Assembly (NCBI GenBank): GCA_001898145.1
Contig: MKSR01000020.1
Coordinates: 96,895 to 160,894, forward strand
Direction: 5' to 3'
DNA: 64,000 nt
Source: Dyadobacter sp. 50-39
GTDB lineage: Bacteria > Bacteroidota > Bacteroidia > Cytophagales > Spirosomataceae
The notes below the pieces were generated by a model. The model was not told the origin of the DNA, searched no databases, and saw only the letters and a program-made list of their open reading frames with translations. The stretch's first letter is position 1, and each line of letters begins with the position of its first letter. The position numbers were made by a program, and so were the translations under genes. Below, piece by piece: positions 7,341-28,304 of this stretch.

Positions 7341-7437
7341 TTTTGAATGAGTGGATGATTGAATGATTGAATGATTGAATGAGTGAATGAGTGAATGATT
7401 GAATGATTGAATTTTGAATGACTGAATTTTGAATGAT
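7341..7437. repeat. Octanucleotide tandem array, GAATGATT type (left arm)
   Basis: Imperfect tandem copies of an 8-base unit (GAATGATT, GAATGAGT) with two TTTTGAATGA interruptions. It begins 12 bases from the hppD start codon. The complementary array lies at 7511-7576, so a transcript through the hmgA-hppD gap could fold into a long hairpin with a loop of about 73 bases. Confidence 0.9.
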
Positions 7438-7510
7438 CCGCAGGGAATTTAGAACGACCGAATATTTAATTATGAAGAAATTTTAGATCGTTGCATGATT
7501 GAGTGCCCGG

Positions 7511-7576
7511 AAAATATTCACTCATTCACTCATTCAAAATTTATTCAATCATTCAATCATTCAATCATTCAAAATT
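7511..7576. repeat. Octanucleotide tandem array, TCATTCAA/TCATTCAC type (right arm)
   Basis: Tandem TCATTCAC and TCATTCAA units, the reverse complement of the array at 7341-7437. The hmgA stop codon (7569-7571) is read from within this array, so the repeat reaches into the gene end. Confidence 0.9.
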
Positions 7577-14058: not shown

Positions 14059-15702
14059 ATGAAAAGAAGACACTTCATGCAAATGTCGGGCCTTGGATTG
14101 GGCGCTGTGATGCTTCCCCAGGTCCCGATTATGGGTAACCCCGTGGCCGAAGGGCAGCTGCTCGATCCGTGGTTCGATGCCGCAACCAAGAAAAAGCTAG
14201 CCGAAACCGCATTGAATGCAGCCCGTGACAAGGGAGCCACTTATACCGACGTCCGGATCGGCCGCTATTTGCAGCAATACCTTTTTACCCGTGAAAGGCA
14301 GGTTCAGAACATCATCAATGCCGAATCTTACGGTATCGGCATCCGGGTGATCGCCAACGGTACCTGGGGCTTTTCGGCCACCAGTGACGTCACGCCCGAC
14401 GGTATCGCCAAATGTGCCGCGACCGCTGTTGCGATTGCCAAAGCAAACTCGAAATTCCAGAAAGAGCCCGTGGTACTTGCGGAGCAAAAAGGTGTGGGCG
14501 ATAAGACCTGGAAAACACCGCTTACCAAAAATGCCTTCGAAATCCCGGTGAGGGAGAAGATCGATCTGCTGATGAAAGTCAACGGGGCAGCTATGGACAA
14601 TGGCGCCAACTTTGTGACTTCGAACCTGTTTTTTGTCAATGAGCAAAAGTACTTCGCGTCGACAGACGGTTCTTTCATCGATCAGGATGTGCACAGGATC
14701 TGGCCTACATTCACTGTTACCGTGACCGATAAAGCTTCCGGCAAGTTCAAAACCCGCGATGCGATCAGCTCGCCGATGGGCATGGGCTACGAGTACCTCG
14801 ACGGCCTCGCCACCGAAAAAATCGCGGGCCCTAACGGCATGGTGGGTTACCGCAACTCGTATGATATGGTCGAGGATGCGATCATGGCCGCGAAGCAGGC
14901 GAGGGAGAAAGTGACTGCCAAGTCGGTAGAGCCGGGTAAGTATGACCTTGTTTTGGATCCTAACCATTTGGGCCTCACCATTCATGAGTCGGTGGGGCAC
15001 CCGACGGAGCTCGACCGCGTGCTGGGATATGAAGCCAATTATGCGGGCACCAGTTTCGCGACATTGGATAAATGGAAAACCAAAAACTTCAACTACGGCA
15101 GCAAGCTTGTCAACATTGTTGCCGATAAAACCCAGCCGCATACACTGGGTGCCGTGGGGTATGACGACGAGGGAGTTCCCTGCAAGGAATGGGACATTAT
15201 TAAGGACGGGATCCTGGTCAACTACCAGGCGATCCGCGACCAGGTACAGATACTGGGAGAAAAAGAGTCCCACGGGTGCTGCTATGCCGACGATTGGAGC
15301 TCGGTGCAGTTTCAGCGAATGCCGAACATCAGCCTTAAACCCGGCACTGAAAAGCGCAGCGTGCTTGACATGATTAAAGGGGTTGAAAAGGGTATTTATA
15401 TTGTTGGCAGAGGGTCGTACTCGATTGATCAGCAGCGCTATAACTTTCAGTTTGGTGGTCAGGTCTTTTATGAGATCAAAAACGGTGAAATCGCCGGTAT
15501 GCTCGAAGACGTGGCGTACCAGTCGAACACCCAGGAATTCTGGAACTCGTGCGTGCAGCTTTGCGACAAAGACGATTACCGCACATTCGGATCGTTTTTC
15601 GACGGCAAAGGTCAGCCCGCGCAGATCAGCGCCGTTTCCCACGGGAGCTCGACGACGAGGTTTAATGGGGTGAATGTTATTAATACCGGAAGGAAGATCT
15701 AA
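14059..15702 (+). CDS. tldD: TldD-family metallopeptidase, copy 1, with Tat-like signal
   Basis: 547 residues. The N terminus MKRRHFMQMSGLGLGAVMLP has a twin-arginine pattern (RRxFM plus hydrophobic stretch), predicting folded export. The metal site HESVGH begins at residue 309, followed by PTELDR; Cys residues in EFWNSCVQLC near the C terminus may give the third ligand seen in TldD. E. coli TldD with PmbA/TldE degrades unfolded peptides, matures microcin B17 and removes CcdA. Here it leads a cluster that repeats the tldD-pmbA unit. The N-terminal leader makes it longer than E. coli TldD (481). Confidence 0.93.
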   Translation: MKRRHFMQMSGLGLGAVMLPQVPIMGNPVAEGQLLDPWFDAATKKKLAETALNAARDKGATYTDVRIGRYLQQYLFTRERQVQNIINAESYGIGIRVIANGTWGFSATSDVTPDGIAKCAATAVAIAKANSKFQKEPVVLAEQKGVGDKTWKTPLTKNAFEIPVREKIDLLMKVNGAAMDNGANFVTSNLFFVNEQKYFASTDGSFIDQDVHRIWPTFTVTVTDKASGKFKTRDAISSPMGMGYEYLDGLATEKIAGPNGMVGYRNSYDMVEDAIMAAKQAREKVTAKSVEPGKYDLVLDPNHLGLTIHESVGHPTELDRVLGYEANYAGTSFATLDKWKTKNFNYGSKLVNIVADKTQPHTLGAVGYDDEGVPCKEWDIIKDGILVNYQAIRDQVQILGEKESHGCCYADDWSSVQFQRMPNISLKPGTEKRSVLDMIKGVEKGIYIVGRGSYSIDQQRYNFQFGGQVFYEIKNGEIAGMLEDVAYQSNTQEFWNSCVQLCDKDDYRTFGSFFDGKGQPAQISAVSHGSSTTRFNGVNVINTGRKI

Positions 15703-15777
15703 TGATTGAATGAGTCAATGAGTGAGTATTTTTTAACTAATCTATTCACTCATTCACTCATTCTCTCATTCAAAATT
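15701..15777. repeat. Inverted pair of octanucleotide arrays between tldD1 and pmbA1
   Basis: A left arm of GAATGAGT-type units (15701-15728) and a right arm of CATTCACT-type units (15744-15777) surround about 15 AT-rich bases. They can form a hairpin of roughly 20 bp. The array starts within the tldD stop codon and ends 35 bases before the pmbA start. Confidence 0.9.
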
Positions 15778-15812
15778 AGATTTCATCACGAACACAAAAC
15801 TGCATCAAGCAA

Positions 15813-17129
15813 ATGGCTATCCTGACCAAAGAAGAAGCTAAAAAAATTATAGATAAAGTCCTGGCATTTTCGAAGGCTGACGAGATCAGTGCGTCGCTTT
15901 CCGGAAACAGGACCGGTAATATCCGGTACGCCCGTAACTCGGTGTCGACCAGCGGCGAAACTTACGATTTGTCGCTTTCCGTCACGGCGGTTTATGGTAA
16001 AAAATCGGGGACTGCTACAATTAACGAGTTCGACGATGCCTCGCTTGAAAAGACCGTTCGCCGTGCGGAGGAAATTGCGAAACTCGCACCCGACAATCCC
16101 GAATATGTACCGATGCTCGGTGCGCAGCAATATGTGAATACCAACGCATTCGCGCAAAGTACCGCGGGGATCGATCCGGAGTACCGTGCGAAAGCCGCAT
16201 TCGGAAGTATAGAGCCCTGCTCCAAAAAGAACCTGACAGCCGCCGGTTATATGGAAGACAGGAGTGGATTTACGGCATTGGGTAACAACAAAGGGCTTTT
16301 TGCATATAACAAATCTACCTCCGTGGACTTTTCCGTGACGGTAAGGACGGCGGATGGCACAGGTTCGGGCTTCGTGCAGCGCGATTATAACGATGCTTCC
16401 AAATTAAATACCAATACAGCTACGGAAATAGCCATGCAAAAGGCATTGGCTTCGGTGAATGCGAAAGCATTGGAGCCGGGTAAGTATACAGTGATCCTGG
16501 AACCCACCGCCGCGCACGACCTCATCCTCAATATGATGCGGAATATGGACGGTCGCAGCGCCGACGAAGGCCGCAGTTTTCTGGGTAAGAAAGGAGGACA
16601 GACCCGGCTGGGCGAAAAGCTGCTGGACGAACGCGTCACCATCTATTCCGATCCCGCCAATCCGGAAGTGCCGGGCTCGCCGTTCGCAAACGACGGCAGG
16701 CCGCAGGAGAAAGTAACCTGGTTTGAAAAAGGTGTGGTGAAAAACATGTATTTCTCGCGCTTCTGGGCGGAGAAAAAGGGCGTAAAAGCAATTCCCTCCC
16801 CGGACGGTATCGTGTTTCAGGGGGGCAGCGAGTCGCTGGCGGATCTTATCAAGAGCACGGAAAAGGGCATTCTCGTCACACGTTTCTGGTATATCCGCAC
16901 CGTGGACCCGCAAACTTTGCTCTACACAGGCCTCACGCGCGACGGCACTTTTTACATTGAAAATGGCCAGATCAAATACCCTGTCAAGAATTTCCGGTTC
17001 AACGAGAGCCCGGTGATCATGCTCAACAATGTGGAGGCGATCGGTAAACCCGTGCGCACCAACGGCAGCCTGATACCGCCGCTGAAAATACGCGATTTTA
17101 CGTTTACAAGCCTTTCAGACGCTGTGTAG
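15813..17129 (+). CDS. pmbA: PmbA/TldE-family protein, copy 1
   Basis: 438 residues, the usual PmbA length, with no signal peptide. It shows GNIRYARNSVSTSGE near the N terminus, RSADEGRSFLGKKGG and LTRDGTFYIENGQIKYPVKN, which mark the TldD/PmbA fold. It lacks HExxxH, as expected for the TldE partner that shapes the active heterodimer. It is downstream of tldD1 across the repeat hairpin. Its partner carries an apparent Tat signal while this protein does not, so either it is carried out with TldD or the two act in different compartments. Confidence 0.92.
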   Translation: MAILTKEEAKKIIDKVLAFSKADEISASLSGNRTGNIRYARNSVSTSGETYDLSLSVTAVYGKKSGTATINEFDDASLEKTVRRAEEIAKLAPDNPEYVPMLGAQQYVNTNAFAQSTAGIDPEYRAKAAFGSIEPCSKKNLTAAGYMEDRSGFTALGNNKGLFAYNKSTSVDFSVTVRTADGTGSGFVQRDYNDASKLNTNTATEIAMQKALASVNAKALEPGKYTVILEPTAAHDLILNMMRNMDGRSADEGRSFLGKKGGQTRLGEKLLDERVTIYSDPANPEVPGSPFANDGRPQEKVTWFEKGVVKNMYFSRFWAEKKGVKAIPSPDGIVFQGGSESLADLIKSTEKGILVTRFWYIRTVDPQTLLYTGLTRDGTFYIENGQIKYPVKNFRFNESPVIMLNNVEAIGKPVRTNGSLIPPLKIRDFTFTSLSDAV

Positions 17130-17174
17130 CGGCAAGCGTAATCCATTTAAACTGCTATCCTGCCATCCATAACA

Positions 17175-17235
17175 GGTGAGTTGAAACAAGTGCAGCCATT
17201 CATTAACTTATGAATTGCACTTTTTTCAACTCACC
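17175..17235. promoter_or_regulatory. Long imperfect hairpin between pmbA1 and tldD2
   Basis: GGTGAGTTGAAACAAGTGCA pairs with the sequence ending TTTCAACTCACC, continuing through ATTCAT/ATGAAT, to give an arm of about 25 bases with a few mismatches and a short loop. It is unlike the octamer arrays in sequence but fills the same kind of position. It may end transcription of the first pair or protect mRNA ends. Confidence 0.65.
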
Positions 17236-17266
17236 CAATCAATTCTATTAGCTAAACATTTACACT

Positions 17267-18904
17267 TTGAAACGACGAGATTTTATTCAAATGGCCGGCC
17301 TCGGAACGGGAGCGTTCATGTTGCCGGGCTTTGCAACGGGCCGACCGGTGTCGCCTGAGGCATTTCTGATGCCGGGCGACGATGTGGCCATGAAAAAGCG
17401 CCTGGCCGACGCTGCCTTGAATGCGGCCAAATCCAAAGGTGCGTCATATGCCGACGTTCGCATTGGCCGCTACCTCAACCAGTACGTTACAACCCGCGAA
17501 GACAAGGTCGAGAATATCGTCAATACCGAATCTTACGGGGTAGGCGTACGGGTCATTGCCAATGGCTGCTGGGGTTTCGCCGCGGTAGTGGATGCCAAAA
17601 ACGAAGCGCAACTGGCGAAAGCGGCAGAAGAGGCCGTGGCAATTGCCAAAGCGAACGCGAAGCTCATGAAAGAGCCGGTACAACTGGCCCCGCAAAAAGG
17701 TTTTGGCGAGGTAAGCTGGAAGGCGCCGATCAAAAAAAACGCATTTGAAGTGCCGATTAAGGAAAAGGTGGATCTGCTGCTTTCGGTGAACGATGCGGCG
17801 ATGAAGAATGGTGCCAACTACGTGAATTCCATTCTCTTTCAGGTCAATGAGCAGAAATATTTTGCCTCTACCGACGGTTCCTATATCGATCAGGACATTC
17901 ACCGCATCTGGCCGCTTTTTAATGTGACGGCCATTGACCCCCAAACAGGCAAGTTTGAAACCCGGCGGTCGCTGAGCGCTCCGATGGGAATGGGATATGA
18001 CTATCTGCAATCGAATCCGGCGGACAAGCTTACCGGCGTGACGACCCGGTATAACAAAGGCTACGACATGCTCGAAGACGCCACGGCCGCGTCCCAGCAG
18101 GCCAAGGAAAAATTGACGGCCAAATCGGTAGAGGCCGGGAAGTATGACCTGATCCTCGATCCATCGCATTTGTGGCTCACGATCCACGAGTCGGTAGGGC
18201 ACCCCCTGGAACTCGACCGCGTGCTGGGTTATGAGGCCAATTTCGCCGGGACGTCGTTCGCTACCCTGGATAAATGGCAGTCCAAAAACTTCCAGTACGG
18301 CAGCAAGCAGGTGAATCTGATTGCGGATAAAACGCAGGTAGGGTCGCTCGGCGCCGTCGGCTGGGATGATGAAGGGGTTAATACCAAGCAATGGGACCTG
18401 GTGAAGGATGGCATACTGGTCAATTACCAGGCGATCCGCGACCAGGCACACATTATCGGGGCAAAAGAGTCGCACGGATGCTGCTATGCCGACAGTTGGA
18501 GCTCGGTACAATTCCAGCGGATGCCGAATGTGTCGCTGGCGGCAGGCAAAACACCTTTGTCCGTGGAAGAGATGATCAAGGATGTCAAAAAAGGCATTTA
18601 CATTATCGGCGACGGTTCTTTCTCGATCGACCAGCAACGTTATAACTTCCAGTTCGGAGGCCAGCTTTATTACGAAATCAAAGACGGCAAGATCGCCGGC
18701 ATGCTGAAAGATGTCGCCTACCAGTCGAATACCCAGGAATTCTGGAACTCATGCGTGCAAGTGTGCGATGAGCGCGACTACCGCCTAGGAGGCTCGTTCT
18801 TCGACGGCAAGGGCCAGCCCATGCAATCCAGCGCCGTCTCGCACGGAAGTTCGACGGCAAGATTTAACGGGGTGAATGTGATTAATACAGCTAGGAAGAT
18901 ATAA
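17267..18904 (+). CDS. tldD: TldD-family metallopeptidase, copy 2, with Tat-like signal, TTG start
   Basis: 545 residues, closely similar to copy 1 along its length. The N terminus KRRDFIQMAGLGTGAFMLPG aligns with the Tat-like leader of copy 1, which fixes the start at TTG 17267; no ATG is available upstream. The HESVGH site begins at residue 307, followed by PLELDR, and the Cys-rich EFWNSCVQVC segment is kept, so the enzyme should be active. It is paired with the second pmbA. Retention of two complete pairs suggests different substrates or obligate mixed complexes. Confidence 0.92.
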   Translation: MKRRDFIQMAGLGTGAFMLPGFATGRPVSPEAFLMPGDDVAMKKRLADAALNAAKSKGASYADVRIGRYLNQYVTTREDKVENIVNTESYGVGVRVIANGCWGFAAVVDAKNEAQLAKAAEEAVAIAKANAKLMKEPVQLAPQKGFGEVSWKAPIKKNAFEVPIKEKVDLLLSVNDAAMKNGANYVNSILFQVNEQKYFASTDGSYIDQDIHRIWPLFNVTAIDPQTGKFETRRSLSAPMGMGYDYLQSNPADKLTGVTTRYNKGYDMLEDATAASQQAKEKLTAKSVEAGKYDLILDPSHLWLTIHESVGHPLELDRVLGYEANFAGTSFATLDKWQSKNFQYGSKQVNLIADKTQVGSLGAVGWDDEGVNTKQWDLVKDGILVNYQAIRDQAHIIGAKESHGCCYADSWSSVQFQRMPNVSLAAGKTPLSVEEMIKDVKKGIYIIGDGSFSIDQQRYNFQFGGQLYYEIKDGKIAGMLKDVAYQSNTQEFWNSCVQVCDERDYRLGGSFFDGKGQPMQSSAVSHGSSTARFNGVNVINTARKI

Positions 18905-18975
18905 TGGGTGAATGTGTGAATTTTGAATGACTGAATGATTGAATGATTGAATAATTAAATTTTGAATGAGTGAGT
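18905..18975. repeat. Octanucleotide array, GAATGATT type, after tldD2
   Basis: Degenerate tandem GAATGACT/GAATGATT units begin directly after the tldD2 stop. They are complementary to the longer array at 19053-19228. Confidence 0.9.
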
Positions 18976-19052
18976 AACGGTCAAGTCTGGTCAAGTGAGA
19001 TCAGGTGTTGTTTTCTTGACAATTTCATGACCGCTTCTGACTCAATGACAAT

Positions 19053-19228
19053 TTATTCGATCATTCGGTCACTCAAAATTCACTCATTCACTCATTCACT
19101 CATTCACTCATTCACTCATTCACTCATTCACTCATTCACTCATTCACTCATTCACTCATTCAATCATTCAATCATTCAGTCATTCAATCATTCAATCATT
19201 CAGTCATTCAATCATTCGGTCATTCAAA
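19053..19228. repeat. Long octanucleotide array ending at the pmbA2 start codon
   Basis: From 19082 to 19225 there are 18 uninterrupted 8-base units: ten identical ACTCATTC followed by AATCATTC, AGTCATTC and GGTCATTC variants. Degenerate copies precede it. The array ends only 4 bases before the ATG of pmbA2, where a ribosome-binding region would normally be. In one plus-strand frame it is open and encodes a His/Ser/Phe/Ile-rich repeat, but I do not consider that a gene. Confidence 0.95.
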
Positions 19229-19232
19229 TAAC

Positions 19233-20570
19233 ATGGCGATCATACTAACAGAAGCAGAAGCGAAGGCGCTTTGTCAGAAAGTGCTGAGCTATTCCAAAGC
19301 AGATGAATGCGAGGTGAATATATTGGGCGAGGAGCGGGGTAACCTGCGCTATGCCCGCAACGAAGTGTCGACCAGCGGTGCACTGATCAACCAGAATTTA
19401 CAGGTCCAGTCCGCATTCGGTAAGAAAGTGGGCGTGGCGACGATCGATGAATTCAGTGACGAATCGTTTGAAAAAGTCGTACGGAGATCGGAAGAACTGG
19501 CGCGGCTGGCGCCGGAAAACCCGGAATATGTGGGCGTCCTCGAACCGCAGACCTATTTGAAATCCAATGGTTTTTTCAATTCCACAGCCGGCATCAACCC
19601 CGGACAGCGCGCCGATGCCGTGGCCAAAAGCCTCGACCTCACGCGCGCGCAGAACATGACTGCCGCAGGATTCCTGGAAGACCAGAAAGGCTACTCGGCG
19701 ATGATGAACTCGAAGGGCCTTTTTGCCTACTATCCCAGCACAAGCGTGAACTTCTCGCTTACCGTACGCACGCCGGACGGGAAAGGCTCGGGTTACGTGG
19801 CCAAGGGGTATAGCGACGTGACGAAACTCGACACCGCCGCCGCCACGAAAATCGCCATTCAAAAATCCAAAGGGTCGGTCGATGCCAGGGCTTTGGAGCC
19901 GGGTAAATACACGGTCATCCTCGAACCGACCGCCGCAGCGGTGCTTTTGGAGAACATTTTCTTCAATTTCGATGCGAGAAGCGCCGACGAAGGGCGCTCT
20001 TTTCTCAGCAAGGCGGGCGGCAAAAGCAAGTTGAACGAAAAGATCGTCGACGAGCGGGTCCATATTTATTCGGATCCCACGCATCCAGACCTGCCGGCAT
20101 CGCCCTGGGCCGGGGATGGTCAGGCGGCCAACAAGATCAGCTGGATTGAGAAAGGTGTAGTTAAAAATCTTGTTTATTCACGCTACTGGGCACAAAAGAA
20201 TAATGTGAAACCGGTACCGTTTCCGACCAATGTGATCATGGCCGGCGGCAATGCGAGTATGGAGGAATTGATCAAATCCACGCAGCGCGGTATTTTAGTA
20301 ACCAAACTCTGGTACATCCGCGAGGTCGATCCGCAAACACTCTTGCTCACGGGCCTCACACGCGACGGTACTTTTTATATTGAAAACGGCGTGATCAAAC
20401 ATCCGATCAAAAACTTCCGTTTCAATGAAAGCCCGGTAATCATGCTCAATAACCTCGAAACGCTCGGCAAACCCGAACGCGTGGTGAGTACCGAAACCAA
20501 CAGCAACTACCTGATCCCGCCGATGAAAATCCGGGAGTTCACATTCTCATCGTTATCTGACGCAGTTTAG
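19233..20570 (+). CDS. pmbA: PmbA/TldE-family protein, copy 2
   Basis: 445 residues, similar to copy 1 throughout: GNLRYARNEVSTSGA, RSADEGRSFLSKAGG, LTRDGTFYIENGVIKHPIKN and the same SSLSDAV end. No signal peptide and no HExxxH, as expected for the TldE half. The start codon directly abuts the 18-unit octamer array, so translation initiation must cope with a repeat-derived leader. The DUF4159 gene follows after 2 bases. Confidence 0.92.
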   Translation: MAIILTEAEAKALCQKVLSYSKADECEVNILGEERGNLRYARNEVSTSGALINQNLQVQSAFGKKVGVATIDEFSDESFEKVVRRSEELARLAPENPEYVGVLEPQTYLKSNGFFNSTAGINPGQRADAVAKSLDLTRAQNMTAAGFLEDQKGYSAMMNSKGLFAYYPSTSVNFSLTVRTPDGKGSGYVAKGYSDVTKLDTAAATKIAIQKSKGSVDARALEPGKYTVILEPTAAAVLLENIFFNFDARSADEGRSFLSKAGGKSKLNEKIVDERVHIYSDPTHPDLPASPWAGDGQAANKISWIEKGVVKNLVYSRYWAQKNNVKPVPFPTNVIMAGGNASMEELIKSTQRGILVTKLWYIREVDPQTLLLTGLTRDGTFYIENGVIKHPIKNFRFNESPVIMLNNLETLGKPERVVSTETNSNYLIPPMKIREFTFSSLSDAV

Positions 20571-20572
20571 TA

Positions 20573-21190
20573 TTGAAACCTTTTTTCTTCACCAGAATCC
20601 AATACACTTCCGGTAACTGGGATACCGACCAGCGAATGCCGTCCAATTTGCTGCATTCGCTGGTTGAGTACACCACAATACCGGTCGACGAGAAGGAAAA
20701 AGTAGTGCAGCTCAGCAGTAATGAAATATTCAAAAGCCCGTTCTGCTACCTGAGCGGGCACAAATTGGTGGAATTTTCGGCCCAGGAGCGCGACCATTTC
20801 AAAAGGTATGTGCAAAACGGTGGTTTCGTGTTTGTCGACGACTGCAACCACGACATCGACGGCCTCTTCGCCAAGTCGTTCGAGCAGGAAATGGCCCGGA
20901 CCTTCGGCCCGAAAGCCTTGCAGAAAATTCCCAACAACCATCCTATCTACCACAGTTTTTTCAAATTCGACGACGGCCCGCCGACCACCTCTTTCGAGCT
21001 GAACGGCTGGGGCGACGACCTCGTGCACGACTATCTTAAAGCAATCACGGTCAATGGCAGGATCGGCGTCCTGTACAGCAACAAGGATTACGGCTGTGAA
21101 TGGGACTATGATTTCCGGAACAAGCGGTTCCTGGCCGTTGATAATACGCGTTTCGGGGTTAACATTGTGGTATATGCGCTGACGGGATGA
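20573..21190 (+). CDS. DUF4159-domain protein, TTG start
   Basis: 205 residues covering a single DUF4159 domain. It begins FFFTRIQYTSGNWDTD, the usual domain start, which makes TTG 20573 (2 bases after the pmbA2 stop) the only sensible start. GGFVFVDDC and the strand/helix order recall a class I glutamine-amidotransferase-like fold without its catalytic triad. No signal peptide here, although DUF4159 is often fused to membrane parts. DUF4159 genes commonly travel with MoxR, DUF58 and BatA genes, as here. Biochemical role unknown. Confidence 0.85.
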   Translation: MKPFFFTRIQYTSGNWDTDQRMPSNLLHSLVEYTTIPVDEKEKVVQLSSNEIFKSPFCYLSGHKLVEFSAQERDHFKRYVQNGGFVFVDDCNHDIDGLFAKSFEQEMARTFGPKALQKIPNNHPIYHSFFKFDDGPPTTSFELNGWGDDLVHDYLKAITVNGRIGVLYSNKDYGCEWDYDFRNKRFLAVDNTRFGVNIVVYALTG

Positions 21191-21255
21191 GCAGAAATAT
21201 AGGGGGAACGAGGAGGTGTTTTTGTTAGGTAAGAAAACTCATTAAGGATCAAATT

Positions 21256-22239
21256 TTGGAAAATTCGACGACATCGTCCCATTACCGGGCATTAGTAGCA
21301 AAACTCCCATTACTAAAAGCCGAAATCGCGAAAGTGATCGTCGGCCAGCAGGATGCGATCGAAGAAATTTTGATTGCATTGCTCGCATCGGGCCATTGCC
21401 TGCTCGAAGGCGTACCCGGGCTTGCCAAAACATTGATGGTCAAGACAATGTCCGAGGCGCTGCACATGAGCTTCCGGCGGATCCAGTTCACACCCGATCT
21501 GATGCCCGGCGATATTGTGGGCACGGAGATATTGGAGGAGGACCATGAAACCGGCAGGAAGTTCTTCAAATTCAACCGGGGACCTTTGTTTGCGAATGTG
21601 GTACTGGCCGACGAAATCAACCGGACGCCGCCCAAGACCCAGGCCGCATTGCTCGAAGCGATGCAGGAAAAAAGCGTCACCTACGGCGGCGAGAACTATG
21701 CATTACCCGATCCGTTCCTGATCATCGCCACTCAAAACCCGATCGAGCAGGCCGGCACCTACCCGCTCCCGGAAGCGCAGCTTGACCGGTTTTTGCTGTA
21801 TATCAAACTCAGTTATCCCAGCGAGCAGGAGGAACTGGAAGTCCTGCGGACTACCACCGGTACGGCAAAGTCGGAAATCGGTCGGGTGTTGTCGGATGTG
21901 GAAATGGCCGATCTGCAAAAATTGACGCGCCAGGTTTACATTGCGGACGAGCTGCTGGTTAAAATTAATGCGTTGGTGCGTTCCACAAGGCCTGAAAGCA
22001 CGAACTCCGAATACATCAAGGAATGGTGCGACTGGGGCGCTGGCCCGCGTGCGGGACAAGCGCTCGTATTATGCGCCAAGGCGCGCGCGGTGCTGCACGA
22101 GCGCTTCTCGGTGGTGCCCGAAGACATCCGTTTGCTGGCATTTCCGATACTGCGGCACCGTATCGCCATGAATTTCCGTGCCGAAGCGGAAGGAATCACG
22201 AGCGACCACGCCATTCAGGAATTGCTGAACGGGCTGTAA
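21256..22239 (+). CDS. MoxR-family AAA+ ATPase, TTG start
   Basis: 327 residues. Walker A is GVPGLAKT (about 52-59), Walker B VVLADEINR, with sensor 1 in IIATQNPIEQAGTYPLPEAQLDRF. MoxR ATPases act as chaperones that help assemble or activate metal-containing or membrane complexes together with VWA-type partners. The start is TTG 21256 (ENSTTSSHYR); there is no better ATG upstream of the conserved helix. The gene is followed by its usual partner, a DUF58 protein, after about 160 bases. Confidence 0.95.
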   Translation: MENSTTSSHYRALVAKLPLLKAEIAKVIVGQQDAIEEILIALLASGHCLLEGVPGLAKTLMVKTMSEALHMSFRRIQFTPDLMPGDIVGTEILEEDHETGRKFFKFNRGPLFANVVLADEINRTPPKTQAALLEAMQEKSVTYGGENYALPDPFLIIATQNPIEQAGTYPLPEAQLDRFLLYIKLSYPSEQEELEVLRTTTGTAKSEIGRVLSDVEMADLQKLTRQVYIADELLVKINALVRSTRPESTNSEYIKEWCDWGAGPRAGQALVLCAKARAVLHERFSVVPEDIRLLAFPILRHRIAMNFRAEAEGITSDHAIQELLNGL

Positions 22240-22400
22240 CGCGGGGACGATCGAACAGCAGATTTGTTGTTACGTCCTGACGGGGTTTTGGGAGCTGTTT
22301 TGCGATTGCATTTTGCTACCCATACTACACCGGTAACGCGATTTGTTCAGCAAGCCACGGCGTGGCTACCAATCCAAAATCTATATTCATTCACAAACCA

Positions 22401-23300
22401 ATGCAAAAGACAACCGGACTGCTGGCGTCCAGCCTGATCAAGCTCAAAAACCTGCAACTGACCGCAAAACTGGTCAGCGAAGAGCTGATGCTGGGCATCC
22501 ATTCCAGTAAACGGTCGGGGATAGGCATTGAATTTGAACAATACCGGCACTACGAGCCCGGCGATGATCCCAAACGCATCGACTGGAAGCTGTTTGCGAG
22601 GACGGATAAGCACCTCGTCCGGGAGTCGTCGACGGAAAGCGACCGGCAGGTCCGGTTTGTACTGGATTTGTCGGGGTCGATGAATTATGCCGAGCATAGC
22701 GTGAGCCGGCTGCAATATGCGCAAATCCTGCTAGCTTCCCTGGCTTACCTGTGTTACATTCAGAACGACCAGATGAGCCTGTATGGGTTGACCGGAGGCA
22801 GGGTGGAAACAATCAGCGGAACGGGCTCGGCCTCGTCCGCCCGGCAGGCTTTCCAGAAGATATTGGTCGGGCTGGAAAAGGCCACCGCGGCAGGGCCATG
22901 GATAACCGCTGCGGCCGGTTCCCGACAGCTGGAATTTCAGTCGAAGAAGCGGGAGCAGCTCATTTTCGTGAGCGATCTGCTGCAAGTCGGTGATGAGTGG
23001 CTGTCGTGGATACGCTCTCTGGCGGGACCAAATCGCGAAATCGTGGTTTTCCAGATTCTCGGTGACCAGGAGAGGGAATTTGACCTGAAAGGATTTTACA
23101 GATTCAAAGACCTTGAAAGCGGCCGGGAAATGGAGCTGGACGCGGAAGCCGTGGGCACACAATTCAGGACATCGATGCAGGCATACCTGGCCGGTGTGAA
23201 GGCGGCATTGCAAATCCCGCATGTGCGCCTGGTGCAGGCGCGTATGAGCGAACCTGTGGGAATGGTATTGAAAGCATTTTTAACGAGAAGAAAAGGCTGA
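22401..23300 (+). CDS. DUF58-domain protein (VWA-like MoxR partner)
   Basis: About 299 residues. The DUF58 signature YRHYEPGDDPKRIDWKLFAR is followed by a VWA-like region with the MIDAS-type motif VLDLSGSMNY. DUF58 proteins are the standard partners of MoxR ATPases. ATG 22401 (MQKTTGLLAS) is preferred over GTG 22362, since the 13 extra residues are unlike the family. The stop overlaps the ATG of the next gene by one base. Confidence 0.93.
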   Translation: MQKTTGLLASSLIKLKNLQLTAKLVSEELMLGIHSSKRSGIGIEFEQYRHYEPGDDPKRIDWKLFARTDKHLVRESSTESDRQVRFVLDLSGSMNYAEHSVSRLQYAQILLASLAYLCYIQNDQMSLYGLTGGRVETISGTGSASSARQAFQKILVGLEKATAAGPWITAAAGSRQLEFQSKKREQLIFVSDLLQVGDEWLSWIRSLAGPNREIVVFQILGDQEREFDLKGFYRFKDLESGREMELDAEAVGTQFRTSMQAYLAGVKAALQIPHVRLVQARMSEPVGMVLKAFLTRRKG

Positions 23301-24424
23301 TGGCGTTTTTGCAACCATACATGCTTTGGGGAATGCTGGCCGCGGCGGTGCCGGTGGCCATTCATTTCTGGTACCAAAAACGGGGCAAAACCATTGAATG
23401 GGCGGCTATGCGCTGGCTTGGCGAGCAAACTACGCTGCAACATCGCGGTATCCGCCTGAACGAGGTTTGGCTCATGCTCCTGCGCTGCCTGCTGGTGGCG
23501 CTTGCCGCATTGATTTTGAGTAAGCCGGTAATGGAGGCATTTCGGGATCGGGCCGGAGCGGCGACCATTCATCTCGTGGAGCCGGACCGGCTGGTAACGG
23601 ATACCTACCGGTTCGAACTGGAAAAGGCGTTGCGCGAGGGGGAGAAGGTGTATTGGCTGGGAAATATGCCTGCACAGGTGACCAGCCTCTCCGAAATGCC
23701 CGCAAATCGTACCGGTTTTGCGGATATGCAACAGAATATCAATGCATTGTCCGGTGATCAACCGCAAACTTTCAAGCTCTATTTTGGCGGCTACATTGCA
23801 CCGGATGCGCTTCGAAAGGTCTACATTCCCGGTGCATACCAATTGTTTCCCGCCACGGATTCTTCCCGGGGCCAACCTGTTTCATTGTGGAAAAAAAAGC
23901 CGGTGTACGGGAAGCCGTTACGCATTTTACTGGAAAACGGAGATAACTCCGAACGGCAAACTATTCGGGCTGCATTGGGCGCATTGAGCGAGGTTTATGG
24001 TTTTGTATTTAAAATAGATAGCAAAAAAGAAGCTGGGAAGCATGCTGACTGGGTTTTTACGAACGAACCGGTACATCATGCCGAAGCCGGCACAAAATAC
24101 ATCGTTTCGGGTGTTTCGCCGGAATGGAATGCCCGGGCCCAGGTGAAGTACCTGCCTGATTCGTTGAAGCTGTCGAGCTCCGGATTGGTCGAAAGCGGCC
24201 GGTTCCCCGAGTGGCTCGGGAACCTGATCGTGAAAGACCTCGGGTTGCAACCGACGGCAAGTTGGCTCAGTCGCGCGCAGCTTACCGCACTGTTTGAGCG
24301 GGTGGAAATGGCCCGTGGGCAACGTGAAGCGGCGTTACGGCCGTGGCTGTTGTTGACTTTTGTAATATTGCTCACCGCGGAACGCTGGCTGGCGTTGCGC
24401 AAAACAAGGGGAAGCAATGGCTGA
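23300..24424 (+). CDS. BatA-like membrane protein
   Basis: 374 residues. The N terminus (FLQPYMLWGMLAAAVPVAIH then WAAMRWL) is the BatA/aerotolerance N-terminal module with two membrane helices (about 7-20 and 55-75). A soluble region follows, and a last hydrophobic helix near 350-365 (RPWLLLTFVILLTAERWLAL). It lacks an evident VWA domain. In Bacteroides the Bat proteins relate to oxygen tolerance; here the gene is fused by overlap to DUF58 and to the next gene, so they are surely co-translated. Confidence 0.85.
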   Translation: MAFLQPYMLWGMLAAAVPVAIHFWYQKRGKTIEWAAMRWLGEQTTLQHRGIRLNEVWLMLLRCLLVALAALILSKPVMEAFRDRAGAATIHLVEPDRLVTDTYRFELEKALREGEKVYWLGNMPAQVTSLSEMPANRTGFADMQQNINALSGDQPQTFKLYFGGYIAPDALRKVYIPGAYQLFPATDSSRGQPVSLWKKKPVYGKPLRILLENGDNSERQTIRAALGALSEVYGFVFKIDSKKEAGKHADWVFTNEPVHHAEAGTKYIVSGVSPEWNARAQVKYLPDSLKLSSSGLVESGRFPEWLGNLIVKDLGLQPTASWLSRAQLTALFERVEMARGQREAALRPWLLLTFVILLTAERWLALRKTRGSNG

Positions 24425-26621
24425 TTTGCAGAAATTGATCCGATCGGTGAATACGCAAATCCAGTGGGTAGCGATTGCCAAATGCTTCCTGCTCGGACTG
24501 GCTTTCCGGTTGGTGGCAGGAGCACTTCCGGGCGAGCATTTGTTTCTGGAATCGATGATCGGCTCGGTTGGCTCGCTAATCGGTATTTTCCGTACCAAGG
24601 CATTTACCGACCGCAGGCACAACACGATCGCGCTGCTGCATAGCCACAATCCGGAGCTGGAATACAGCCTGGATTTATTGGATAAGCCCAACCTGAACCC
24701 GGTGGAGCAAATGCAGCTCGAACGGATCACCGGCAGGAGGGCATTAGTCCCCAGGCGAGCGGTATACAGCGGCCTGTGGGCTTACTTCGGGATTTTTCTG
24801 CTCGGTTGGGGCATTAATCATGGCGCTTACCTATTGTCCGTCCGAAAGGAAAAATCCGCCAAGGCCGAGGCTCGCAGATCGGTTTCAGCTCCCCATGCAA
24901 CGACCCGGGTGCCGCGCTATCTGGCGGCAAGCGTGAAGGTGACGCCGCCAGCCTACTCGGGATTGCCTTCCCAGTCGTCCCCGGACCTGAATATCAGTGC
25001 ATTGGTGGGATCTGCCGTGGAATGGTCGGTTGGGTTTGATGGCACGGAGGGCCTCACCGTTCGCTTGGCCAATAGCCGGGGAGAGGAAGTGGCATTCAAA
25101 GAAACTGGGGGGAAGTTTGCGCTTCGCGACCGCATTGCGGGTTCCGGACTGTATTCGATCAAAGGGTATTGGAAGGACTCGCTGGTGTACCAGTCTGATT
25201 TTTACAAACTGGAAGCCTTGCCCGACCTTGCGCCTCGCATCGAGCCGGCCTCGAAGGAGTTGTACCGCTACCATTTCCTCAAAGACCCTAAAAACATCAT
25301 CGTCTCCGCCCGGATATCGGACGATTTCCGCGTGAAGCAGGCATTCATTGTGGCGACAGTGGCCCGCGGCTCCGGTGAAAATGTCAAGTTTCGGGAGATT
25401 CGGATGCCGCTCGGCCCCGCCGATTTTAAGGAAGCAAATATCCGGAAAACCATCGACCTGAATGCCCTGAATTTTACACCGGGCGACGAGCTCTACTACT
25501 ACTGGGCCGCGATCGACAACCGCCAGCCGGAGGGGAATTTCACCAAGTCGGATACCTATTTTATTGTATATAAGGATACTGCCCAAATCGAGGAGGCGCA
25601 GCTTGCTACCATGGCCGTGAACGTTATGCCCGAATATTTCCGTAGCCAGCGGCAGATCATCATCGATACCGAAAAGCTGATTGCCAAACGCAAAAGTCTC
25701 AAAACCAAAGACTTCAATGCCGCTTCGAATGAGATTGGTTTCGACCAGAAGGTGCTCCGGCTTCGGTACGGGCAATATTTGGGGGAAGAATTTGAAACTA
25801 CCATCGGCGGCGGCGATGCAGGTGCCGGAGAGGGCATTGTGATCGACGCCTTCACACACCATTCGGATGGCCATGGCGAAGGTGCCGATGCCCGTGGAAG
25901 CGAGCCCGTGCACGATCATGCGCACGAACACAAACAGGAGCCCGCAGGCGAAAAGGACCCGCTGGCAGCGCTCATGGAGCAATATACCCATGCGCACGAC
26001 GATGCGGAAACGAATACATTTTATGAACAATCCGCGCGTAGCCTGCTGAAAATGGCTTTGGAACAAATGTGGCAATCGGAACTTCATTTGCGCACTTTCG
26101 AACCCGAAAAGGCGCTGCCATATGAACATAAGGCATTGGAATACCTCAAAACCGCTCAGCAAAAAGCGCGGACTTACGTGAAAAAAAGCGGTTACGACCC
26201 GCCGCCGATCAAGGAGCAGGAAAAGCGGCTGACCGGCGAACTGAAAGACCTGAGCACCCGGTGGAAGCAGGAAAAGGAGTTCAGTCAAAAACAAATGGCC
26301 AGACTGGCAGCTGCATTGCTCGGGTACCTGGAAAATGATAATCCGGCTAGAAATGAGCAGGCGACCAGGGCCGCATTAAGTTCGGAAATAGCCCGGCGGC
26401 TTACGGAAAGCGGGCCATTCAATGGCGGATTGCAGAACTGGACTATGCTGGCCGCATTGCAAAAGCTGGCTGGCGGGCAGGCATTGAGCAATGCGGAAAT
26501 GGTGGGTCTGAAACGGGACTTGTACCAGCGGACAAATGCCGCATTGCAGAGCCGCCCCGGATGGTCGGGCGAGAAAAAGTTGGAGGCTGCATTCCGGAAG
26601 GCATTGCGCCGGCCCCTTTGA
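24417..26621 (+). CDS. DUF4175-like membrane protein with His-rich segment
   Basis: 734 residues, overlapping batA by 8 bases. Two membrane segments lie near residues 18-36 and 118-140, then a beta-rich middle (about 160-400) and a long helical, Gln/Glu/Lys-rich C-terminal half. Between about 470 and 535 is a striking His-rich stretch (THHSDGHGEG, VHDHAHEHK, THAHDDAE) that looks able to bind metal ions. Large membrane-plus-coiled-coil proteins occur in MoxR/DUF58 clusters of Bacteroidota; the DUF4175 link is tentative. Possibly it supplies metal to, or scaffolds, the peptidase or MoxR complex (inference). Confidence 0.75.
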   Translation: MADLQKLIRSVNTQIQWVAIAKCFLLGLAFRLVAGALPGEHLFLESMIGSVGSLIGIFRTKAFTDRRHNTIALLHSHNPELEYSLDLLDKPNLNPVEQMQLERITGRRALVPRRAVYSGLWAYFGIFLLGWGINHGAYLLSVRKEKSAKAEARRSVSAPHATTRVPRYLAASVKVTPPAYSGLPSQSSPDLNISALVGSAVEWSVGFDGTEGLTVRLANSRGEEVAFKETGGKFALRDRIAGSGLYSIKGYWKDSLVYQSDFYKLEALPDLAPRIEPASKELYRYHFLKDPKNIIVSARISDDFRVKQAFIVATVARGSGENVKFREIRMPLGPADFKEANIRKTIDLNALNFTPGDELYYYWAAIDNRQPEGNFTKSDTYFIVYKDTAQIEEAQLATMAVNVMPEYFRSQRQIIIDTEKLIAKRKSLKTKDFNAASNEIGFDQKVLRLRYGQYLGEEFETTIGGGDAGAGEGIVIDAFTHHSDGHGEGADARGSEPVHDHAHEHKQEPAGEKDPLAALMEQYTHAHDDAETNTFYEQSARSLLKMALEQMWQSELHLRTFEPEKALPYEHKALEYLKTAQQKARTYVKKSGYDPPPIKEQEKRLTGELKDLSTRWKQEKEFSQKQMARLAAALLGYLENDNPARNEQATRAALSSEIARRLTESGPFNGGLQNWTMLAALQKLAGGQALSNAEMVGLKRDLYQRTNAALQSRPGWSGEKKLEAAFRKALRRPL

Positions 26622-26645
26622 GATTTTAGCAAGAATTGAAACTGA

Positions 26646-28304
26646 ATGATCCATACCGATTTTAACTGGACCGAACCCGCGAACGCACTTTTGCTGCTGG
26701 CAGCAGCTGCATTGCTGATAATCCAATGCCGGATGCTATGCATGCAGCGTCGAGAGTATGGTGGCCGGCAGTCCGGTGGTGGGCAATCCAAAAGGTGGAA
26801 TATCCGGTTAGCTTTGAATGTGCTGCTTTGGGCGAGTGTGTTAGCCTGGATAGCAGACCCTTACTTTAAATCCGGAGCTTCGCCGAAAACGGGATTACTG
26901 GTCGCTGGCAACGTCCCTTCCGAAGTAGCCGCACACTTTCGCGATAGCCTGGCGGGGGCAGAGGTGATTAGCGTAGCTGAAATTGCGTCGAAGCCCGTGG
27001 ATAGATTGGTGATTGTAGGACAGGAGTTTGATGAAAATGCTATTGCCTCCATCAGTCAGCTGAAAAATATGCCTTCCCTGCAATGGTTACCGTATTTCAA
27101 GCCCGACGAGTTCCGTCATTTGCATTGGAGAGGTGTGGTAAGAAAAGGTGAAATGCAGCGGGTAGAAGGCACCATTCAATTGTCCGCTCAAAAGACTTTG
27201 CAAGTGCGCTACGCCGGGCTGACGCTCGATAGCATCACGCTCGACGCAGGTGTGAGGCATTTCACCCTGTCATTCCCCGCATTCTCCGAGGGCCGCACTA
27301 CTACCACGCTTGCATTGGACGGGCAGACGGTCGACACGCTCCGCTTTTTTACCCGGCCGGAGGGCAAACTGACGGTGACATTCCTGCTCGATAACCCCGA
27401 CTTTGAGACACGCAACCTGGCAACATGGCTCGGAAAACAAGGCCACGCCGTATTGTATGGGGCCACATTATCGAGAAATATTCGCAGTGAGCTGAATATC
27501 AACCGCGCCGCCGACCCGGACCTGATCATAACAAGCGCCTCCAATGCCGCGGCTATGGCTGTGCGCAAGGCGGTGAACGGGGGTAAAAGCGTGCTTTTCC
27601 TTTCCCTGAACGACCCGGCGACAGACCTCCGTTCGATCAATAGGGCATTGGGAACGGGTTTTCAACCGGTGAAAATCTCCAATGATGAATCCGTGCCGGT
27701 ATCGCCCGGTTTGACCGCCCGGCCTTTCCGTTTTGCGCGGAGCGATTTTCAGATGCAAGCGCCGCATTACCCGGTGCAGATGGAGAAAACAAGCGGCAAA
27801 ATCGCCGTGAGCCTACTGAATGAGACGTTTCCGATGCAGTTGGCGGGGGACAGCGTTGCCTACGGGAGGGTATGGGACGAAATCCTAGCCTATGTGCGCC
27901 CGGCGCAGGTGCCTGTGCTTGCATGGGATGCGCCGGTTTTCGAAAATGTGCCGCTGGACATTCACATGAACACCTTGCAGCCGGTTCCCCGGTTTTTGAC
28001 GTTGAGGCAGGATACCGTTTCCGCCGTAGTTTCCGCATTGAACGGCCGCTCCGCTACCGCAACGCTTTTGCCGCATAAAAATGGCTGGCTGGCTTTGCAT
28101 GATTCTTTGCAAACCGAGCTTTATGTGCAGGATTACTCCGCGTTGCGGTATGCCTCCCGCATGCAGCACTTCATTCATTATCCAAAAGAAACGAATGCGT
28201 CGACCGGCGAACGGGACCTGCCGGCCCGAAAGTTGCCCGGCTGGGCCTGGTTTACCTGGCTCGTGCTTTGCCTGGCCGCGCTCTGGATCGAGCCGAAACT
28301 GTGA
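26646..28304 (+). CDS. Membrane protein of the MoxR/Bat cluster, GATase-like
   Basis: 552 residues. Helices at about 11-30 and 52-68 and a C-terminal helix (WAWFTWLVLCLAALWIEP) bracket a large periplasmic or cytosolic part. The middle contains VTFLLDNPDFETRNLATWL and LIITSASNAAAMAVRKAV, reminiscent of amidotransferase-like domains in Bat-cluster proteins. It starts 24 bases after the previous gene and is the last of the rightward cluster; a convergent gene follows. I cannot name a family with confidence. Confidence 0.7.
   Translation: MIHTDFNWTEPANALLLLAAAALLIIQCRMLCMQRREYGGRQSGGGQSKRWNIRLALNVLLWASVLAWIADPYFKSGASPKTGLLVAGNVPSEVAAHFRDSLAGAEVISVAEIASKPVDRLVIVGQEFDENAIASISQLKNMPSLQWLPYFKPDEFRHLHWRGVVRKGEMQRVEGTIQLSAQKTLQVRYAGLTLDSITLDAGVRHFTLSFPAFSEGRTTTTLALDGQTVDTLRFFTRPEGKLTVTFLLDNPDFETRNLATWLGKQGHAVLYGATLSRNIRSELNINRAADPDLIITSASNAAAMAVRKAVNGGKSVLFLSLNDPATDLRSINRALGTGFQPVKISNDESVPVSPGLTARPFRFARSDFQMQAPHYPVQMEKTSGKIAVSLLNETFPMQLAGDSVAYGRVWDEILAYVRPAQVPVLAWDAPVFENVPLDIHMNTLQPVPRFLTLRQDTVSAVVSALNGRSATATLLPHKNGWLALHDSLQTELYVQDYSALRYASRMQHFIHYPKETNASTGERDLPARKLPGWAWFTWLVLCLAALWIEPKL

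Follow-up and report, generated by a model that had tools for sequence, protein, structure and literature searches.

The locus and the leaders of its TldD proteins

We analysed a 64,000-nucleotide stretch of the genome of Dyadobacter sp. 50-39 (contig MKSR01000020.1; the whole stretch is called the window), in which two gene pairs for the metallopeptidase subunit TldD and its partner PmbA (TldE-like) lie beside genes for a MoxR-type ATPase and associated proteins. The locus consists of ten open reading frames, all on the plus strand and separated by short gaps, at positions 14059-28304, as a preliminary description of the sequence had placed them. The two TldD/PmbA pairs are followed by genes for DUF4159, MoxR, DUF58 and BatA-like proteins and for two further proteins called P9 and P10 here, and we refer to these genes behind the pairs as the module (Table 1). 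Pfam recognised PmbA_TldD in four genes and DUF4159, AAA_3 (MoxR), DUF58 and BatA in one each, and gave P9 (734 amino acids) and P10 (552 amino acids) of the window no match of their own. The Walker A, Walker B and metal ion-dependent adhesion site (MIDAS, DxSxS) motifs are intact in the MoxR and DUF58 proteins of the window. In the whole genome, PF01523 was found at E ≤ 0.001 only in the four PmbA_TldD genes of the locus, and outside the locus there are one TatC match, a second DUF4159 gene, two further strong AAA_3 (MoxR) genes and one weak AAA_3 match. The top named matches to TldD2 came from Dyadobacter jiangsuensis (97%) and Dyadobacter sp. MSC1_007 (96%).

TldD1 starts with ATG at 14059 and has the N-terminus MKRRHFMQMSGLG (MKRRHFMQM), and TldD2 starts with TTG at 17267 and has the N-terminus MKRRDFIQMAGLG (read as MKRRDFIQM), with no in-frame ATG from the preceding stop to the leader; PmbA1 and PmbA2 begin leaderless with MAILT and MAIILT. 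For comparison, stop-to-stop frames were collected from 28 Bacteroidota stretches, 79 named loci and the window and classed by profiles built on the first set. The named loci are the best 79 of at least 590 candidates and are biased towards close relatives; the Bacteroidota stretches and the named loci share some members (L047 and L107 stand on contigs of identical length, 226,284 bases), and frames below the score thresholds or cut by locus ends (2 TldD) were excluded. A leader pattern (R, R/K, any residue, F/L/M/V/I, one or two free residues, 12 uncharged residues) matched 170/171 TldDs, the single exception being a frame of L096 that opens inside the domain, and 0/147 PmbAs, compared with 23/623 other neighbouring frames. 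Among the module proteins the matches were 0/72 for MoxR, 0/73 for DUF58, 0/72 for BatA-like, 2/73 for DUF4159, 6/69 for P9 and 5/61 for P10. The preliminary claim that both TldDs carry a leader of the twin-arginine translocation (Tat) type and both PmbAs lack one thus holds in the window and across its relatives.

A logo of the TldD leaders was built from 163 distinct sequences of the 171, after four without the anchor, one without the motif and three identical ones had been dropped. Arg at position 0 and Phe at +3 are invariant, the latter unforced, since the search also allowed L, V, I and M there; position +1 is Arg in 138/163, and positions +4 and +6 to +17 are nearly charge-free. Two residues before the first Arg stand M in 68, L in 87 and V in 8 cases, so that TTG starts are probably common among these genes. 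Curated models gave a weaker Tat signal than the pattern and the logo: TIGR01409 (the NCBIfam Tat model) matched 29/60 TldD N-termini at E ≤ 1, window TldD2 reaching 13.9 bits against a cut-off of 16.7, and Pfam TAT_signal (PF10518) matched 6/23 TldDs at E ≤ 1. TIGR01409 was not among the 25 families listed, of 31, for 60 PmbA N-termini, and a single match could sit among the others. Judged by its residues, the leader has the RRxF motif and uncharged core of Tat substrates, and we consider export of TldD very probable. The presence of TatC was dropped as a discriminating test, since 197/198 sampled genomes, including that of the window, have it.

Table 1 Features of the TldD/PmbA and MoxR locus (positions in the window)
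Feature	Position	Strand	Description
TldD1	14059..15702	+	metallopeptidase subunit; Tat-type leader MKRRHFMQM..., HESVGH, third-ligand motif DGKGQP with Asp
PmbA1 (TldE-like)	15813..17129	+	no leader, no HExxxH
TldD2	17267..18904	+	TTG start; Tat-type leader KRRDFIQM...; 70% identity to TldD1
Gap TldD2-PmbA2	18905..19232		arrays of a genome-wide 8-bp repeat
PmbA2	19233..20570	+	no leader, no HExxxH; 61% identity to PmbA1
DUF4159	20573..21190	+	start close to domain; N-terminus lacks the hydrophobic segment that the genome's second DUF4159 has
MoxR-type AAA+ ATPase	21256..22239	+	Walker A GVPGLAKT, Walker B VVLADE
DUF58 (VWA-like)	22362..23300	+	MIDAS-type DLSGS
BatA-like membrane protein	23300..24424	+	three transmembrane-like segments; middle part probably periplasmic
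P9, DUF4175-related membrane protein	24417..26621	+	N-terminal transmembrane helices, beta-rich part, His/Asp/Glu-rich low-confidence loop (~residues 458-535), helical end
P10 membrane protein	26646..28304	+	transmembrane-like segments at both ends; large middle part probably periplasmic

Inheritance of the pairs and co-occurrence with the module

The PmbA gene lies less than 600 bp behind the TldD gene in 144/147 cases. The distance matrices of cognate TldD and PmbA proteins correlate at 0.90, compared with a mean of 0.33 and a maximum of 0.54 over 2000 within-genome swaps (40 loci), which argues that the pairs are inherited as units. Because E. coli TldD/E is described as active only as a heterodimer (PMC5810440), a PmbA that hitchhikes with TldD would be consistent both with this requirement and with the leader pattern, and we regard export of PmbA together with TldD as likely. 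PmbA_TldD domains 1, 2 and 3 were found, domain 1 of PmbA2 scoring 19.6 (cut-off 20.9) in one search and 23.2 in another. The motif HE...H..E.D is present in 173/173 TldDs and HExxxH in 0/147 PmbAs. The published account of E. coli TldD names His262, His267 and Cys454, with Lys456, Glu270 and Asp272, and gives Asp for Cys in Gemmatimonas (PMC5810440). Motif alignment places Asp, and not Cys as in E. coli, at the third metal ligand in all 173 TldDs of our set, in the motif DGKGQ (171/173) or DGKGE (2/173), and by the same alignment Asp513 of TldD2 would be equivalent to Cys454. This leaves membership of family M103 standing, Asp variants being accepted in the family according to PMC5810440. Ahead of the HExxxH region (alignment columns ~260-290), the clade TldDs also contain ~20 residues that are missing from L046, L055 and one copy in L048.

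A FastTree of 53 proteins shows the window clade as monophyletic (44 tips, support 0.90) and places L046 and L055 next to it, apart from a leaderless Nonomuraea relative (42% identity), with a support of only 0.37. L046 and L055 belong to a sister group of eight genomes (read as L046, L055 and L153-L158; TldD 50-54% identity), in which the third-ligand motif has Asp in four and Cys in four. A second branch of E. coli-like TldDs (L053, L054, L056, L057 and L142, the last on a Parabacteroides distasonis plasmid) also has an RR leader on TldD and none on PmbA, so that the tag on the TldD half alone appears, by sequence, in two branches. Of four of these proteins tested, only L054 passes the strict pattern, as charged residues stand behind the motif; for four of the branch no such module was present in the stretches read, and L058 is leaderless at its likely start. 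The TldD of L142 (3989-5521) has an RR leader ending in LLGSC and looks like a Tat lipoprotein; its gene lies behind an anaerobic sulfatase-maturation gene. The exchange of Cys for Asp as a consequence of export was considered and rejected, because the RR-leader proteins of the E. coli-like branch keep Cys, as do four of the eight leader-bearing sister TldDs (L154-L157). Asp at the third ligand is better read as a mark of lineage.

At least one module gene lies near TldD, within the fetched stretch, in 66 of the 79 named loci, where MoxR was found in 59, DUF4159 in 59, DUF58 in 60, P9 in 57 and PmbA in 79. Of the 13 loci without a module gene, ten measure ~21.6 kb, and the stretches of L081, L084 and L088 are short. 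The order varies: several loci of Pedobacter, Mucilaginibacter and Chitinophaga have the MoxR part before TldD or reversed, with DUF4159 divergent. The linkage of TldD/PmbA with MoxR, DUF58, DUF4159 and BatA-like genes, which the preliminary description had noticed in one genome, is thus conserved across Bacteroidota. DUF4159 was tried as a marker of the module and found unspecific (146/198 genomes), because a second type of DUF4159 with a signal-peptide-like start is common; P9 was taken instead and is the best module marker.

Among 392 Bacteroidota genomes (thresholds E ≤ 1e-60 for TldD and E ≤ 1e-15 for P9; counts uncorrected for phylogeny), TldD was found in 41, 33 of which belong to the window clade (57-100% identity; G268 with fragments only) and eight to the sister group. 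P9 was found in 32 genomes, all within the 33 with clade TldD, and in none of the other 351, so that both occur in 32, TldD only in 1 and P9 only in 0. The one genome with TldD only, G237, is a draft in ~150 contigs with a completeness of 95%; in its TldD stretch (L159), TldD and PmbA stand alone. Genomes of the same genus differ jointly in TldD and P9, as in G049 versus G186, G076 and G194 versus G111, G343 versus G053, and G214, G349 and G361 versus G099. In a sample of 198 genomes PF01523 occurred in 27, and TldD and P9 both in 18. TldD and P9 lie on separate contigs in three drafts (G079, G133 and G137, in the last with TldD near a contig end) and ~120 kb apart in a fourth (G125). Their co-occurrence therefore extends to unlinked genes, and neighbourhood alone fails to explain it.

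P9 and the other proteins of the module

Ten of 22 homologues of P9 match Pfam DUF4175, and through them P9, itself unmatched in the window, appears to be related to that family. P9 has 9 His, 8 Asp and 10 Glu in the segment of residues 458-535. Across 68 P9 proteins, the richest 60-residue window has a median of 7 His, with at least 5 in 60, at least 6 in 55 and at least 7 in 40 proteins, compared with a median of 3 and a 95th percentile of 6 in 287 neighbouring proteins. Ten longer P9-related proteins of the same phylum (1115-1192 amino acids), weakly found by P9, have 1-3 His, and the motif HxHDxAE behind the loop occurs in 28/68 P9s and in 0/10 of these longer relatives. The AlphaFold model of P9 has a mean predicted local distance difference test (pLDDT) score of 78.2, residues 458-513 and 527-531 lying below 50, and that of P10 a mean of 90.8. 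Foldseek searches with both models returned, among the matches shown, partial ones alone with TM-scores to the query of at most 0.20, and no function was read from them.

Hydropathy averages over 52, 21 and 43 homologues of P9, BatA-like and P10, together with the charges of their segments, suggest by rule of thumb that a large portion of each of the three is extracytoplasmic. The first transmembrane helix of P9 is visible in the window protein and missing from the homologue average, and the sidedness of P9 is therefore uncertain. For the module DUF4159, the anchor was found in 71/73 proteins, no more than 25 residues of open frame precede it in 48/71, and the 30 residues upstream of it contain a strongly hydrophobic 12-mer in 0/71, so that this protein is probably cytoplasmic. 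The other type of DUF4159 has a hydrophobic start that ends like a signal peptide in 6/6 proteins (L061, L146, L147, L148, L150 and L152). Its gene is directly followed by a long P9-related gene in 4/10 stretches (L147, L148, L150 and L152); DUF4159 and P9-related families thus keep together even where TldD is absent. In 14 genomes among the rows listed, the distance between tatC and a DUF4159 gene is ~1.9-3.8 kb (G003, G008, G013, G018, G030, G050, G058, G073, G081, G147, G155, G179, G183 and G195), which may be a second connection of DUF4159 with Tat. When plasmids were searched with DUF4159, two weak records came up.

Apart from the genes, 8-bp tandem arrays (ATTCACTC/ATTCAATC) stand at 7343-7572, 15744-15772 and 18923-19226 of the window, often as inverted pairs ~70-300 bp apart. 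A 24-base pattern of these arrays has 107 matches in the genome and its reversed control 0, and they look like a dispersed repeat element.

A possible assembly machine for a probably exported peptidase

The explanation that we favour, at about even chances, is an extracytoplasmic TldD/PmbA peptidase served by a dedicated MoxR-based machine for its assembly or metal loading. TldD and PmbA would fold together in the cytoplasm, and the Tat leader on TldD alone would carry the folded heterodimer through the inner membrane, PmbA hitchhiking. MoxR as the ATPase, DUF58 as an adaptor resembling von Willebrand factor A (VWA) domains and the cytoplasmic DUF4159 would couple to BatA-like, P9 and P10 with their large periplasmic parts, and this machine would open the closed shell of the heterodimer and supply metal, the His-rich loop of P9 acting as the metal donor. 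That the MoxR part remodels or metallates a client is suggested by the co-occurrence, and its being an assembly machine or metal loader for TldD, as the preliminary description had proposed, has roughly as much for it as against it: the loop of P9 is a specific new clue in favour, and the sister group tells the other way.

Several observations weigh against this explanation. All eight sister TldDs have the leader and an adjoining untagged PmbA, and all eight sister genomes lack P9 genome-wide and any module gene in stretches of 14-20 kb. Leader-bearing TldD/PmbA can thus do without the module, which is not needed for every Tat-tagged TldD; either the sister group makes use of a different MoxR set, or the module has a task peculiar to the window clade. 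The His signal has exceptions, as in 4/68 P9s no stretch of 60 residues contains as many as 4 His, 11/287 other proteins reach at least 7, and the richest P9 window, nearly always the loop in the rows printed, lies elsewhere in L119 and L090. RK replaces RR in 25/163 TldD leaders, and plain duplication of linked genes would give the same agreement of TldD and PmbA distances. Moreover, Tat is held to move cofactor-loaded proteins, which would make a periplasmic loader unusual, and we found no localisation data.

Export may also take place as proposed while the MoxR/Bat part acts on the substrate, unfolding peptides or membrane proteins or handing them to a periplasmic TldD/PmbA shell, a possibility that we consider rather unlikely. 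The TldD/E channel is described as narrow and as admitting only unfolded peptides (PMC5810440), three membrane proteins appear to have large outer parts, substrate supply fits the tight co-occurrence of P9 and TldD as well as assembly does, and the module-less sister TldDs may simply have other substrates. However, the DUF58 and DUF4159 of the window have no hydrophobic N-terminus, and the sole one of MoxR lies inside its nucleotide-binding part, so that force would have to cross the membrane, and the His-rich loop of P9 would be left unexplained. A further step down in probability is the export of TldD alone, which would act either as a homodimer or together with some other partner, PmbA staying in the cytoplasm. 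This would agree with the complete lack of leaders among the 147 PmbAs, with the excess of TldD over PmbA genes in 27/100 loci holding either gene over threshold, and with the active TldD homodimer reported from Sulfolobus (cited in PMC5810440), but PmbA stands directly behind TldD in nearly every case, the pairs diverged together, and E. coli TldD is stated to need TldE (PMC5810440).

A dedicated maturation system for ribosomally synthesized and post-translationally modified peptides (RiPPs) or other peptide natural products that exports its protease seems improbable to us. TldD/E removes RiPP leaders according to PMC10885120, but no conserved precursor peptide was found in the gaps of more than 60 bp, where the frames of 15-91 amino acids match only Dyadobacter among the twelve relatives compared, and beside the module no other family of frames of at least 110 amino acids was shared by more than 5 of the 44 genus or bin labels, which were set from record titles. 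The remark that no precursor gene is visible thus stood up, and a RiPP role is unsupported. We give marginally less credence still to the view that the leader is no working Tat signal and that the whole system is cytoplasmic or membrane-anchored. The weak single-model scores and the RK leaders speak for it, whereas the invariant Arg and Phe, the uncharged core, the absence of the leader from PmbA and the RR leaders on the second, E. coli-like TldD branch in Bacteroidota speak against it.

The peptidase and machine of the favoured explanation each have known relatives. In Tat hitchhiker complexes such as hydrogenase-2 and PaoABC, one tagged and one untagged subunit are encoded by adjacent genes; unlike these, the present complex would be a peptidase and no redox enzyme. 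MxaR and MxaS of the methanol dehydrogenase system MxaR-S-A-C-K-L are MoxR and DUF58 proteins with a role in calcium insertion. Their genes stand with mxaACKL beside the dehydrogenase genes (PMC6414531), and MxaL is given as a periplasmic protein that takes part in the maturation of methanol dehydrogenase (PMC12482762), whereas in the present case a peptidase with a Tat-type leader is accompanied by DUF4159 and a His-rich DUF4175-related protein. NorQ/NorD, described as a MoxR AAA+ protein and VWA partner that insert metal into nitric oxide reductase (PMC13036017), differ in target, VWA partner and membrane parts; by analogy, NorQD and the mxa genes would be the nearest models of the MoxR part. 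The Bat (Bacteroides aerotolerance) operon shares MoxR, DUF58 and a BatA-type membrane protein (PMC11834572), but the present locus has DUF4159, P9, P10 and TldD/PmbA in place of its VWA and tetratricopeptide repeat parts. E. coli TldD/TldE (PmbA) of family M103 is alike in its three PmbA_TldD domains, in HExxxH in the TldD half only, in the adjacent partner, and in the clamp Lys and acidic residues described for it (PMC5810440); the present TldDs, at ~50 bits to E. coli TldD, are unlike it in the Tat-type leader, the Asp third ligand and the linkage to the MoxR module. In the open-licence PubMed Central literature we found no description of the module and no papers on DUF4159.

Homologues of tldD and tldE are reported in ~60% of bacterial genomes, with a general function that PMC5810440 calls elusive. 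An exported form that is spread through a phylum and inherited with an ATPase module would offer a genetic handle on substrate, metal source and partner dependence. In its most specific form, which we put forward tentatively and at somewhat less than even chances, an ATP-powered, membrane-spanning machine in Bacteroidota would assemble and zinc-load a Tat-exported TldD/PmbA, and the His-rich P9 would be a new kind of periplasmic metallochaperone. If this is true, MoxR/VWA machines would be extended to a peptidase, the DUF4159, DUF4175-related and BatA-like proteins would gain a client, and TldD/PmbA, known as a cytoplasmic enzyme, would work outside the cytoplasm in Bacteroidota.

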